Shown here: one piece after another, positions 5,787 to 15,913 of the stretch
Numbering within the stretch: the stretch's first letter is position 1
How the letters are laid out: each line of letters opens with the position of its first letter
Assembly: GCF_900156105.1 (NCBI RefSeq)
Contig: NZ_FTMS01000011.1
Location: 62,001-126,000 of the forward strand
Direction of reading: 5' to 3'
DNA length: 64,000 nt
Source: Alkalispirochaeta americana
GTDB lineage: Bacteria > Spirochaetota > Spirochaetia > DSM-27196 > Alkalispirochaetaceae
Translations under genes and position numbers: made by a program
Notes under the pieces: generated by a model
Told to the model about the DNA's origin: nothing
Seen by the model: the letters and a program-made list of their open reading frames with translations, nothing else
The model's database searches: none

Positions 5787-6569
5787 TTAACCTTCGGGAG
5801 CCCGATCCCGGATCTGCAGAGCCACCCGGTAGTAATCGATCGCACCGGAACTCCGAAGGCTGTGCTGGAAGATCGTCTGGCCTGCTCCGGGCGCCTCGGC
5901 AAGCTCCCGGTTCAGGTGAACGGGTTTAAGGACCAGCTCCCGGCCCAACCGGTTGCGGATATCTTCCAAAAGCGCCCCTCCCCCCAGAACCGAGGTATCC
6001 ACGAAGGTGGGGATGATCCCCCGAACCTCCAGGTCGGGGTTGTAATGCTTCTGAATCTGCTCGGTGAGTTCGATAATCTCGATCATTCCCTCCATCGCCA
6101 GGAACTGGGCCTGCATGGGGATGTAGGCCTCCCGCCCCGCGATGAGAGCCCCCAGCGTCAGCAGCTGCGTTGTGGGGGGCGTATCAAAAATGGTGAACTC
6201 GAAGGAATCCATGGCCGGACTCAAGCGATCCCTCATCCAGAACCGGGCCTCCCGAAGATTGGAGTGGCGCCGTTCGAAATCGGCAAGCCGCCGCGACGAG
6301 GGAATAACGGCCAGGCGGGGGATATAGGTGGGCTGAAGGGTTTCCTCGAACGAGGAACGGCTCTCCACGAGGGTGCTCAAGTCCGCCTTCAGCCCGGCCT
6401 GGGCTATCCCCAGCGACATGGTTGCGTGAGCCTGGGGGTCCGTGTCGACCACCAGCACCCGATGCCCCATATGTGCAAGAGCTGCGGCGATATTCACGCT
6501 GGTTGTGGTCTTTCCGCAGCCTCCCTTGCGGTTTGTGAAAACCAGCCGCCGCGGGGCTAAAGCTGTCAT
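5787..6569 (-). CDS. Orphan ParA-family ATPase
   Basis: The 260-aa ParA/Soj/MinD-class ATPase has a deviant Walker A, RKGGCGKTTTS, with signature Lys15 and P-loop Lys20 (Cys18 replaces the usual Val). The Walker A' segment is VVDTDPQAHATMSLG and Walker B is FTIFDTPPTTQ. Such proteins form ATP-dependent dimers that position DNA, protein clusters or membrane complexes. No parB gene and no parS-like palindrome are visible, so chromosome segregation is unlikely to be its only job. ATG 6569 overlaps the stop codon of the upstream gene as ATGA, and GGGGAGGAG precedes it, so it is translationally coupled to the cyclic-nucleotide-binding protein, its probable partner. Upstream in-frame residues to 6713 lie inside that gene and are not used. 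Confidence 0.88.
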   Translation of the reverse strand: MTALAPRRLVFTNRKGGCGKTTTSVNIAAALAHMGHRVLVVDTDPQAHATMSLGIAQAGLKADLSTLVESRSSFEETLQPTYIPRLAVIPSSRRLADFERRHSNLREARFWMRDRLSPAMDSFEFTIFDTPPTTQLLTLGALIAGREAYIPMQAQFLAMEGMIEIIELTEQIQKHYNPDLEVRGIIPTFVDTSVLGGGALLEDIRNRLGRELVLKPVHLNRELAEAPGAGQTIFQHSLRSSGAIDYYRVALQIRDRAPEG

Positions 6570-8599
6570 AGGGCTCCTCCCCCGAGAATATTGTTCAGAA
6601 TTGTTCGGGTGATTGCGTAGAGGGGAGGGACTCCCTCGTGGGGCGCCAGCGGTGCCGTGAGGCCCCCATGAGCCCGAAGCGGTATATCGGAAACGTAATA
6701 GAGAAAGGAACACCTCACATCCCGGGGAATAACCCCCAACTCGCGAGATTCCAGAATTTCCCGATAATAATGGGTTCCTTCCATTTCCATCCCCACCACA
6801 TCCCAGATTTCCCGATAAAAGGAGAGCATCTGCCTGTTCTGAAGCAAGGTTCCCTCCACGGTCAGCATGGGGCCGCTGTGAACGGCGAAGGTTTTTGCCA
6901 GAATCGCTTCAAGCTCTTTTTGGCTCCCCGGCAAGGGCTGAAACTGATCAGTCTGCTGCTCAATAAACGCCGAGGGACACAGGAGGTCCCCTCGTTCTCC
7001 TGCAAGCGCTCCGGCCTTTCCCAGAAAACTGATACTCCGGATGTTCGCCCCGAAGAGGGTCAGCAGGTTTCTGATCACGTACTCCGCCTGGTGCCCGAAG
7101 GCATAATCGATGTTTACCACCAGGTCGCGACAGCCGCCTGGAACAGGGAGGAGGTCTTCGTCGTAGGCCTCACCCCTGAGTTGCTCCAGGTCGATCACCT
7201 GCACCTGGATTCCTGTACTTGCCGTCTGGTCAAGCCAGTGCTGTCCCCCGGCGAGTGCACGCTTTCGCGCAATCTCTGCCTCCCGGGGAAAGACAGCAAA
7301 ATAATCCCGGGCCAAGGCATAGACCTGGTCAGCCTGGTGGCGCCAGGCCCCCTCCAATGCAGCGTGCTGCTCCTGCCTCCCCCACTGAAGGATAGCGCTT
7401 TGGTGCTCGGGAAACCAGGGATTCAGACAATTTGTTACGGAGTGGGTATTGCTGCTCACAATGTGAACCCCTCGCTCGGAAGACAGGTCCGTGGGATCGC
7501 ACCCGATGAGCTCCCTCGTTACCCGAGCCACCTGGCTGATCCAGTACTCGCCTCGGCGCATATTGTAGTTTCGCCGCTGCCGCCGCACATCAATGCCGAT
7601 CATCTCCCGATGCCTGAGAATTTCGTAGAGCCTCTGAGGCGTATCGGCAGGCCAAATGCTTCTGATCCCCGCCATTTCCCGGGTGCTGAAGGGCATGGTC
7701 CTGAGAAAATCCTCCTCATCCCCTCCTTCCCCGGATGACAGGAACCGCTGGAGCCGGGGTGCTGCCTGATCCCGGGCCAGACGCTCCCGGATTTTTTGTG
7801 CCTCCACCGCATAGAGGCAGAGGCAACTTACCAGGTCGATCAGATCGGAGCGGCCGTTTCGCAGAAGCACCATGTTTTTGCCCGGCATCATCTCCCAGAC
7901 ATCACGCCGCCGCGCTGCCGTAGCGATAACGGGAAAAAGCGTTTCCGGCTCATCGAAGGCGTGGGGAAACTCATCCACCAGGAGAAAGGCGAAGGTCCGG
8001 GTGACGTTTTCGGGAAGGCGTCGCAGGGCGTAGTGAAAGGCCGCCGTGTCCAGGCGGTGAGGATCGGTCACCCTCGGATGAATCGCCGGATGAAGCGAGC
8101 GGTAGAGGGGCAGGAGTCCCTCGATATTGATATAACCCTCGTCTGCTTCCTTGAGAAGCCGGCCCGTGAAGCGGTCAAAACCCGAGAATATCCCCTGGTT
8201 ATCTCTCAGGATCGTCCCGAACCCCTGGGAGCAGGCGGGAGATTCCCGAAGAAGTTCTCGAAATCGCTGCCCCGGGATCCAGAAAAGAAGGCCCTCACCC
8301 CGGGCGCGGGCGCCAAAAAGCCGGGGCTCGCAAAAGATGGCTTCCCATTCTCCAAAATAGTGGAAGGGCTTCACCACTGTGACAAGCTGGTCATCTCCGC
8401 GCCGGGGGTCCAGAATTTCAACCTCCCCCCGGGCGATCAGGAAAACACGATCATCCTCATCACCGCGGAGAAAGACTGTCTCACCCTCGGCAACGTTCCG
8501 GGGTTGAAGATTCTGCGCCAACCTGTCCCTCTGATGGCCACGCAAGAACCGGAAGGGATGCACCCTCAAAAGAAGATCCTGAACTATTTGATCCTTCAC
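6566..8599 (-). CDS. Cyclic-nucleotide-binding protein with nucleoside-phosphorylase-like C-terminal domain
   Basis: The product is about 677 aa and has no signal peptide. Residues 1-130 form a cyclic-nucleotide-binding fold. The phosphate-binding cassette reads FGEWEAIFCEPR, with GE and PR seven residues apart as in true cNMP binders, although the residues after PR differ from consensus. The middle (about 150-460) I cannot assign firmly; it may be a spirochaete-enriched family of unknown function. The last 200 residues carry motifs like purine nucleoside phosphorylases/nucleosidases: SFLGKAGALAGERGDLLCPS, VGMEMEGTHYY and YYVSDIPL. GTG at 8599 is preferred because the preceding 98-nt gap contains a hairpin and no ribosome site fits the upstream TTG at 8683, but the start is uncertain. 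It is coupled to ParA by an ATGA overlap. The substrate is unknown. Confidence 0.7.
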   Translation of the reverse strand: MKDQIVQDLLLRVHPFRFLRGHQRDRLAQNLQPRNVAEGETVFLRGDEDDRVFLIARGEVEILDPRRGDDQLVTVVKPFHYFGEWEAIFCEPRLFGARARGEGLLFWIPGQRFRELLRESPACSQGFGTILRDNQGIFSGFDRFTGRLLKEADEGYINIEGLLPLYRSLHPAIHPRVTDPHRLDTAAFHYALRRLPENVTRTFAFLLVDEFPHAFDEPETLFPVIATAARRRDVWEMMPGKNMVLLRNGRSDLIDLVSCLCLYAVEAQKIRERLARDQAAPRLQRFLSSGEGGDEEDFLRTMPFSTREMAGIRSIWPADTPQRLYEILRHREMIGIDVRRQRRNYNMRRGEYWISQVARVTRELIGCDPTDLSSERGVHIVSSNTHSVTNCLNPWFPEHQSAILQWGRQEQHAALEGAWRHQADQVYALARDYFAVFPREAEIARKRALAGGQHWLDQTASTGIQVQVIDLEQLRGEAYDEDLLPVPGGCRDLVVNIDYAFGHQAEYVIRNLLTLFGANIRSISFLGKAGALAGERGDLLCPSAFIEQQTDQFQPLPGSQKELEAILAKTFAVHSGPMLTVEGTLLQNRQMLSFYREIWDVVGMEMEGTHYYREILESRELGVIPRDVRCSFLYYVSDIPLRAHGGLTAPLAPHEGVPPLYAITRTILNNILGGGAL

Positions 8600-8659
8600 C
8601 GCTCCATGGTAGCACGTCGGCAAGCCTTGGCGGAAGAGAAATGAGCCCCCACCCGGAAG

Positions 8660-8678
8660 GAGCTCCCCGAAGGAGCTC
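8660..8678 (-). repeat. Short stem-loop between two genes of the pheT-downstream cluster
   Basis: GAGCTCC (8660-8666) pairs with GGAGCTC (8672-8678) around five bases. It lies between the stop of the unrecognised 319-aa gene and the probable start of the cyclic-nucleotide-binding gene. No T-tract follows, so processing or attenuation is more likely than full termination. Confidence 0.4.
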
Positions 8679-8697
8679 TCCAAAGGAACACAAAAAC

Positions 8698-9657
8698 CTA
8701 GCGAAGATACCCGGGCACCAGCGCCTGGGCCCGAACCCGCTCCAGGAGCCTGTAGGCGTCACCGTAGGAAAATCCCTCGGCCAGATCAAAAAGGTGGTGA
8801 TCCCCGGGCAACCCCTCCCCAAAGTTGAAGGTGCACACAGGATGCTCCAGAACTCCCTGTATGCCGTCAAGGGAAAGCCCCTGGTCAAGAAGAAATCGGG
8901 CAAAGGACGAGTCTTCCAACACCGCAGGAGAACCGTCGGGCCGCAGAAGATAATCCCGGGTATCGGCTAGCTGCTCGAAGGGGCTTCGCGAGATGTGGAC
9001 GGTACGAGCAATAGGGGAGGTTTTCCGAAGGATTCCCCGCTCGATCAAGGCCCGTTTCATCTGGTGGGCTATTTCAAAGAAATGGGGATACCCCAGGCGC
9101 GTCCGAAAGGCCATGACGGCGATATCGGTGGAAGCCGTATTCTTGTGAAGCAGGGCGGGAATATCATAATTTACGATGTAATCATCGCCATGCCGCTTTA
9201 TCACCTGACCGGCGATATGGACAATGTCCCTCTCTTTCACCCAAAGGGAGAAGAGCTCTTCCGGAGACCAGTGATACCGCTGAAGCGCAGAGAAGGCTCC
9301 GAGAACCCGCCCTTCGGGAAAGGGCTCACCGTAGAAGTCCCCGAACTGCCGCCGCATGTCGCCGGTGAAAAACCGGCCTCCGTGAACGGCAAAGAAGAGA
9401 CGCAACGAATAATGGCGCTCCACAATGGCGTTGTTCACGATATAACTGCCGGGGAAATTGGCCAGGTAGATAAACTGCAACCCCTGGCGGTACTCCCGGC
9501 AATGCTGGATCACCGAGAGTATCGTGCTCTCCACAAGGACCCCGTTGGATTCCGGCCGAAGGTATAGAAAGATATCCAACACCTCCGGGTCCGGCTCTGG
9601 CCCTGGATAGGGCAAGAGAAGCTGAGGCTTATGCAGAACCTCCGGTTTTGCCGACAT
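8698..9657 (-). CDS. Unrecognised conserved-looking protein downstream of pheT
   Basis: I do not recognise this 319-aa protein. It lacks a signal peptide or membrane segment and has no clear nucleotide-binding motif. It is rich in aromatic residues, with stretches such as NFPGSYIVNNAIVERHYSLR, DIVHIAGQVIKRHGDD and RLGYPHFFEIAHQMKRAL, and looks like one globular alpha/beta protein. ATG 9657 lies 29 nt inside the end of pheT, with GGAGGGG 12 nt upstream, so it is co-transcribed with pheST. Its codon use is like its neighbours, arguing against a recent import. The next genes encode the cyclic-nucleotide-binding protein and ParA. A shared role with them is inferred from position only. Confidence 0.75.
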   Translation of the reverse strand: MSAKPEVLHKPQLLLPYPGPEPDPEVLDIFLYLRPESNGVLVESTILSVIQHCREYRQGLQFIYLANFPGSYIVNNAIVERHYSLRLFFAVHGGRFFTGDMRRQFGDFYGEPFPEGRVLGAFSALQRYHWSPEELFSLWVKERDIVHIAGQVIKRHGDDYIVNYDIPALLHKNTASTDIAVMAFRTRLGYPHFFEIAHQMKRALIERGILRKTSPIARTVHISRSPFEQLADTRDYLLRPDGSPAVLEDSSFARFLLDQGLSLDGIQGVLEHPVCTFNFGEGLPGDHHLFDLAEGFSYGDAYRLLERVRAQALVPGYLR

Positions 9658-11380
9658 GATCCAACAACCCCTCCAGGTTGATCTCCCCGGCCGTGCAGGG
9701 CATCTGGATACCCCAGGCGTCGAGCACCCGGGGATGAAGCTCTCCGAAGACTCCCACAGCCTGGTCCGTTCCCTGAAGCACGATCTCAGCCGCCCGCCCC
9801 GGAATAAACCGGGAGTCCCGGCACTCCCGCAGGGAATACTCGTGCCCCATGTAGTACAGTATAGCTGAGACGCGAGAATTTACCAGATTAAAGCCGGCGC
9901 CCCGATCGGCCGTGAGAAACCCCAGGTTTGTCAGAGTTCTCGTTCCCGTGGGATCCGGCTCATACTGTTCCGCAACCTTGCCAACCTCGAAGACGTTGTG
10001 GGGATAGACCGCATTGGCGCTCACGCTCTCTGCCTGGAGCAACGAGGCGATCACCGAGGGCCGTACAAAGGCGTAGTTCTCGCTCATGGGGTTATCCACC
10101 TGGACGGTGTGAGCAAAGGCCTGGTCCCACTCGTCCCTGGGGTAGAGTTTTTCTATGTAATCTTTTCCCGATCCCAGGTAGTTGAAGACCATTTCCTGGA
10201 ACCCCAGCCCCACCAGGAGCGTTTTCAGGCGCCGGCTATATTCTTCCAGGGGCGTCAGTCGGCCCATGGTAAAATCCCGGGGCATCCGGGGCGAGAAGAA
10301 ATCCATGCCGCAGCCAATCATTACGTCCTCCACCACATCCACGGGGTGAAGAAAATCGTTCCGGTACTGGGGCACACGAATTTCCACCGATCCTTCGGCG
10401 ATCGAAGCCTCAATGCCCATGCGCCCCAGGGCCTGGAGGATCTCCTTTTCCTGGAGATCCACCCCGAGAAGGGCTGATATCTGGGCTATCGGAGCGCTTT
10501 GAGAAACCTGGAAGTAATAGGGAACGGTGAAAGAGCGACCGTAGGGTGTCTCCCAGGGATATTCCACGGCCACCGGTTCCACGGTGTACCCCAGGTCAGC
10601 GGCATCACAGGCGACGATGGACGCTGCGTGAAGAAGCGAATCCAGGTCCGTTCCGGTGAGCTCCACAAAGAGGCTGCTGTCTCCCTCCTGAACCGCTCCC
10701 AGGTGGGCACTGTTGATAACGGGAGGAAAGCTGAGAATCTCCCCCTTGTCGTCTTCAAGAAGGGGAAAAAGGGGGAGGTCTTCCACGATGTGCGCGTATT
10801 CCTGTCCCTTGGGGTGTTTCCGGAGAATCTCTCGGAGAGAGAGGGCCTGCTCCATCTGGAGCGGAACAAAGCGGGTCGTTTCGGGATCAGCCCCCCGGTA
10901 GTGCACGGGATAGGTGATCAGATCGGAGCGGTACAGCCCCATGGCAATGGACTTTCGCTTGCGCCCGTAGTTCCAGGTGAGCTTCTCCTGGGTCTGGATC
11001 AGGTCCTTCAGAACGGCTTCATTGACGGGGTCTCCGGTCATGACGAAGCCCACAACCCAGGGACGGATCTCCCGGACCGAGGAGTCCACCACTATTTTTC
11101 GTCCGGCGCTCTCCCGACTCGTCCCGGAATCGGAAAAGAAGGGATAGTCGGGATGATTCCCGCCCTGGTGTATCCGCAGTTGTCGTGCGAGTCCCGCCGT
11201 GGACCAGAGATCGGGCCGGTTGGTGTCGTTCAACTCGACCTTCATGATTCCCGTTTCGTCGGCAGACTCGTCCAGCTCTGCTTTTGCGCAGGGGAAAATC
11301 TCCTCCAGCTGTTCGTCTGTCAGGGGCCCCGACCCGATCAGTTCGATCAGGGCATCCCGGTATACTTCTATTTTCGGCAT
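9629..11380 (-). CDS. pheT: Phenylalanyl-tRNA synthetase beta subunit, archaeal/eukaryal type
   Basis: The 583-aa protein is the beta subunit of the tetrameric enzyme that charges tRNA-Phe. Typical bacterial PheT has about 800 aa, with an N-terminal tRNA-binding domain and a C-terminal anticodon-binding domain. This protein begins directly MPKIEVYRDALIELIG and ends soon after the synthetase-like core, the compact form of archaea and eukaryotes. B3/B4 and B5 regions are visible around ELNDTNRPDLWS and DVVEDVMIGCGMDFF. It starts 25 nt after pheS, and AGAGGGA precedes the ATG. Spirochaete PheRS of archaeal type is established in Borrelia and Treponema; this fits that pattern. The downstream unknown gene overlaps its end by 29 nt. 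Confidence 0.93.
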   Translation of the reverse strand: MPKIEVYRDALIELIGSGPLTDEQLEEIFPCAKAELDESADETGIMKVELNDTNRPDLWSTAGLARQLRIHQGGNHPDYPFFSDSGTSRESAGRKIVVDSSVREIRPWVVGFVMTGDPVNEAVLKDLIQTQEKLTWNYGRKRKSIAMGLYRSDLITYPVHYRGADPETTRFVPLQMEQALSLREILRKHPKGQEYAHIVEDLPLFPLLEDDKGEILSFPPVINSAHLGAVQEGDSSLFVELTGTDLDSLLHAASIVACDAADLGYTVEPVAVEYPWETPYGRSFTVPYYFQVSQSAPIAQISALLGVDLQEKEILQALGRMGIEASIAEGSVEIRVPQYRNDFLHPVDVVEDVMIGCGMDFFSPRMPRDFTMGRLTPLEEYSRRLKTLLVGLGFQEMVFNYLGSGKDYIEKLYPRDEWDQAFAHTVQVDNPMSENYAFVRPSVIASLLQAESVSANAVYPHNVFEVGKVAEQYEPDPTGTRTLTNLGFLTADRGAGFNLVNSRVSAILYYMGHEYSLRECRDSRFIPGRAAEIVLQGTDQAVGVFGELHPRVLDAWGIQMPCTAGEINLEGLLDHVGKTGGSA

Positions 11381-12992: not shown

Positions 12993-15913
<2,921 letters not shown>

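Follow-up and report, generated by a model that had tools for sequence, protein, structure and literature searches.

A predicted cyclic-nucleotide-binding protein with a nucleosidase-like domain and a linked ParA of chemotaxis lineage downstream of pheST in Alkalispirochaeta americana

We analysed a 64,000-nucleotide stretch of the A. americana genome (the window) and found, downstream of pheS and pheT, a unit of three genes whose central product, P0002, joins a cyclic-nucleotide-binding (CNB) domain to a region probably descended from the nucleoside phosphorylases, and whose last product, P0003, is a ParA-type ATPase. What is established at this locus is the domain content, the homology, the conservation of motifs, the synteny and the lineage of the ParA. 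We give roughly even chances to a reading in which P0002 is a cyclic-nucleotide-controlled N-glycosidase or phosphorylase and the ParA positions P0002 assemblies in the window's family.

According to the list of open reading frames, all the genes concerned are encoded on the minus strand, where pheS (12959–11406) is followed by pheT (9629–11380), P0001 (319 aa; 8698–9657), P0002 (677 aa; 6566–8599) and P0003 (260 aa; 5787–6569); the three frames singled out by the preliminary description, and all the motifs that it quoted, are present in the sequence on this strand. P0001, a conserved protein without a family, starts inside its co-directional upstream neighbour pheT, which it overlaps by 29 bp. 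P0002 begins with a GTG at 8599, 98 bp past P0001; an alternative TTG at 8683 would give a product of 705 aa. We considered whether this 98-bp gap holds a terminator or an RNA structure, and rejected the idea. The reported overlap between the ParA start and the preceding stop codon can be read directly as ATGA (6566–6569, minus strand; 4 bp) behind GGGAGGAG. P0001, P0002 and P0003 are all under purifying selection, with dN/dS values of 0.05–0.16 against two relatives. Beyond pheS lies a TPR gene with a 60-bp tandem repeat in 4.9 copies (window 13611–13902), which encodes a proline/glutamate-rich repeat.

Of 345 Spirochaetota sampled, 22 have DUF6909, the Pfam family that covers most of P0002, and so do 35 of the 46 genomes of the order; for P0001 the counts are 24 and 42, respectively. 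Among the 33 order genomes having both genes, 26 carry them side by side on one strand, six (all of one family) carry them apart, and one is undecided. pheT adjoins P0001 in relatives too, including several genomes without DUF6909 at that place. P0001, P0002 and ParA occur together only in the window's family, where P0002 was found in 8/8 genomes, each with a ParA at its gene, and the 4-bp overlap recurs in all seven members in which it could be checked. As far as contigs show, ParA is not at the locus in the other 27 order genomes with DUF6909, and is therefore not needed for the core function. The suggestion that three linked genes would recur in relatives thus stood for the P0001–DUF6909 pair across the order, and for the whole unit within the window's family, but not for ParA beyond it. 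We conclude from gene content that P0001 and DUF6909 are the stable pair and that ParA is a family-level addition.

The N-terminal sensor proposed for P0002 is borne out, at the level of prediction, by a cNMP_binding match (PF00027, E 4e-13; 49.5 bits against a cut-off of 27.5) over residues 34–119 (8243–8500, minus strand), for which the top PDB matches are PKA regulatory subunits. Within this domain, the phosphate-binding cassette FGEWEAIFCEPR occupies residues 82–93. A glutamate and an arginine of the cassette are ligand contacts in the CNB family; among 16 CNB-bearing homologues, Glu84 is kept in all and Arg93 in 15. An Encapsulin-2B match of P0002 in NCBIfam covers the CNB part only and was rejected. 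The cNMP-regulated acetyltransferase Pat of mycobacteria likewise carries an N-terminal CNB domain before its catalytic domain and gives a weak NCBIfam match, again to the CNB part only; the catalytic part of P0002, however, is nucleosidase-like and not an acetyltransferase. It had been noted that no nucleotide cyclase is near, which is correct for the neighbourhood but not for the genome: class III cyclases number at least six there, and the gene for one of them lies on the window's own contig, roughly 20 kb beyond the window. A cyclic-nucleotide ligand is plausible for P0002 because of these enzymes. Other spirochaetes, and a Bacteroidota plasmid, encode DUF6909 proteins that are free of the CNB domain; the sensor is therefore either an addition to the core or a loss from it. 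At three loci (L053, L056 and L060), a CNB-free DUF6909 gene is immediately preceded, on its own strand, by a gene for a CHASE2-class III cyclase, a neighbourhood that we left out as evidence of a link since it is confined to one genus (g132).

The remainder of P0002 (residues 160–672; 6584–8122, minus strand) matches PF21850 (DUF6909) with 397 bits (E 1e-118, cut-off 27), and its C-terminal part (residues 455–672; 6584–7237, minus strand) is the domain that the preliminary description had likened to phosphorylases. In the Pfam scan, up to an E of 1, P0002 itself had no match to PF01048; its NCBIfam match to the phosphorylase HpnG was weak (0.071, far below the cut-off), and neither P0002 nor eight homologues matched the AMP nucleosidase NCBIfam. 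Seven of 25 DUF6909 members matched PF01048 at E 0.01 or better, one of them over the curated cut-off (8.6e-6, 25.8 bits against 25.1, the best orthologue match), and four DUF6909 genes formed the weak tail of an unbiased PF01048 search of 31 genomes. A profile built from MTAN, DeoD-type and AMP nucleosidase sequences and run over 6063 open reading frames, decoys included, placed DUF6909 genes amid the true phosphorylases and just below them. Essentially everything in its first 46 rows is a phosphorylase or a DUF6909 gene, and no clear third family shows up; these rows include a reading frame near a DUF6909 locus (L081, E 1.8e-17), presumed to be another phosphorylase. Profile–profile alignment lined up GKAG, RGD, the TVEGT segment, EMEG and SD with phosphorylase motifs, at a probability of only 19%, and single-sequence phosphorylase templates were too weak in hhalign.

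EMEG lies at residues 605–608 of P0002 and SD at 637–638, and EME and SD are invariant in 25/25 DUF6909 members. In the phosphorylase superfamily, EME holds the ribose-binding glutamate and SD the base-protonating aspartate. The first strand and loop of the phosphorylase fold may lie around SSNTHS (residues 382–387). P0002 thus shares with the PF01048 superfamily (PNP, MTAN and AMP nucleosidase) an ordered series of glycine loop, GD, EME and SD, but lies beyond family detection and has roughly 300 additional residues as well as the CNB domain. The PF01048 matches of orthologues and the aligned, invariant motifs give good support, at the level of sequence comparison, for the homology of DUF6909 to phosphorylases; DUF6909 would be a branch of the nucleoside phosphorylase/nucleosidase superfamily that has diverged strongly. 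A nucleosidase or phosphorylase activity of P0002 is likely. AlphaFold2 models of P0002 and P0001, each built from four closely related rows, were poor (pLDDT 45–47), with the phosphorylase-like region of P0002 mostly below 50; the closest named relative, Alkalispirochaeta alkalica DSM 8900, has a P0002 that is 88% identical.

P0002 might instead be a nucleoside-binding sensor or scaffold that has lost cleavage, in keeping with its distance from every family whose catalysis is known. We regard this as unlikely, given that the Glu-Met-Glu and Ser-Asp motifs have stayed invariant in the 25 members down to 22% identity, in CNB-bearing and CNB-free forms alike. A search of our library found nothing relevant on DUF6909 or on a fusion of CNB and nucleosidase domains. 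Several neighbours of DUF6909 genes in relatives were also noted. In one genome (G304), a gene for an adenosine-specific kinase (PF04008; L075:10874-11368) lies between pheT and DUF6909, a hint of purine nucleosides that counts in favour of our reading of P0002. In several relatives (L064:3389-4009, L067:5848-6468, L072–L074, L076 and others), but not in the window, DUF6909 has a DUF1707/LiaF-like gene upstream in divergent orientation, and the divergent neighbour in another genome (G103) is a RelA/SpoT gene (L077:10013-12046).

P0001, described earlier as unrecognised, indeed has no match in Pfam, NCBIfam or the PDB; P0001 profiles gave chance-level results only against the PDB, and no relationship between P0001 and DUF6909 was detected. 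Nineteen diverse homologues share 21 invariant residues, among them Arg34, Glu43, Asn67, Lys154, Asn163, Arg185, His221 and Asp232, a set that looks enzyme-like. In two genomes of another family, a ParA of a different branch comes directly after P0001, and DUF6909 is absent (L149:8535-9566 and L151:7144-7890). This independent pairing would fit a reading in which ParA has P0001, rather than P0002, as its adaptor or cargo. The ParAs concerned are distant from P0003 (23–31% identity), ParA-like genes are numerous enough for the pairing to be due to chance, and the tight coupling in the window's family is to P0002; we consider P0001 an improbable adaptor or cargo.

P0003 is a Soj-like ATPase by sequence (AAA_31, E 7e-42; P-loop KGGCGKTT), as in ParABS (Soj/Spo0J) systems, but there is no ParB at its locus. 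The observation that no ParB is near was sound: the genome has its own, separate ParA–ParB pair on another contig (G000:C4), with ParB directly behind ParA. In our tree, P0003 groups with its orthologues (100/100), and this group is nested in a clade of 17 members (97/100) that stands apart from the chromosomal ParAs. Seven of the nine non-DUF6909 members of the larger clade adjoin cheA, several with a similar style of overlap, which places P0003 in a lineage otherwise linked to chemotaxis operons. In other bacteria, ParAs of the chemotaxis type are responsible for placing chemotaxis clusters (PMC10241942, PMC5706961). In lacking a ParB and in its kinship to che-operon proteins, P0003 is comparable in type to PpfA of Rhodobacter and ParC of Vibrio. 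Unlike with those proteins, no che gene is found at the P0003 locus, where the neighbours are P0002, the linked gene, and a hybrid kinase.

P0003 might serve chemotaxis arrays in trans, or hitchhike in the operon, with no tie to P0002. Its nearest relatives are ParAs of chemotaxis operons, the window's family has several CheAs yet only one ParA of the 17-member clade, the one beside P0002, and pairs of P0001 and DUF6909 without ParA exist elsewhere. Against this, the 4-bp coupling to P0002 is strict over a range of 59–94% ParA identity. ParA-linked CheAs at six loci (L144, L187, L189, L190, L193 and L194) also share an N-terminal LGxxFxxLIDEKE-like motif, which at a guess could be the contact for ParA, and the motif was found at 0/12 CheA loci sampled from the window's family, an argument whose first step is itself that guess. 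Its absence from the sampled CheAs suggests, without proof, that ParA changed partner. Neither P0001 nor P0002 showed a recognisable motif for contact with ParA. Overall, we think service in trans or hitchhiking rather unlikely, and favour P0002 as the partner of P0003; ParA-type genes are commonly encoded near their own cargo.

Nucleoside phosphorylase and cNMP-binding domains both occur in conflict systems (PMC7159879), and the CNB part of P0002 weakly matches PycTIR in PADLOC (0.0048). P0002 could on these grounds be a Pycsar-like defence effector that degrades nucleosides on infection. Unlike in Pycsar, no cyclase and effector share one locus, no cyclase being found among the locus neighbours, and PADLOC returned only generic CNB and ParA matches, none of them specific. 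The pheST neighbourhood is moreover stable and looks vertically inherited, with DUF6909 in three-quarters of the order's genomes (35/46). The earlier preference for housekeeping over defence is upheld by pheST synteny across the order and by the lack of a specific PADLOC match. A defence role for the locus is unlikely on the genomic evidence, and we hold the effector reading to be very improbable.

In our preferred reading, catalysis, ligand regulation and positioning would work as follows. The N-terminal domain would bind cAMP or cGMP from the cell's own cyclases, and binding would switch the nucleosidase-type DUF6909 domain on or off. P0002 would then cleave nucleosides or nucleotides and so tune the purine nucleoside/nucleotide pool, with P0001 as an older partner that takes part in this. 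Within the window's family, the operon would have taken over a ParA of the lineage that positions chemotaxis arrays, and P0003 would most likely spread or position P0002 assemblies, with or without P0001, over the nucleoid. That a ParA recruited from chemotaxis distributes clusters of a cyclic-nucleotide-gated nucleosidase is a proposal that we make only tentatively.

The analysis suggests a function, cNMP-regulated cleavage of nucleosides or nucleotides, for a Pfam family without a known one, and makes P0002 a candidate target of cAMP or cGMP in spirochaetes. If the proposal is true, second-messenger control and ParA positioning would be joined on one soluble metabolic enzyme, and P0003 would be a cargo-positioning ParA that has switched its cargo.
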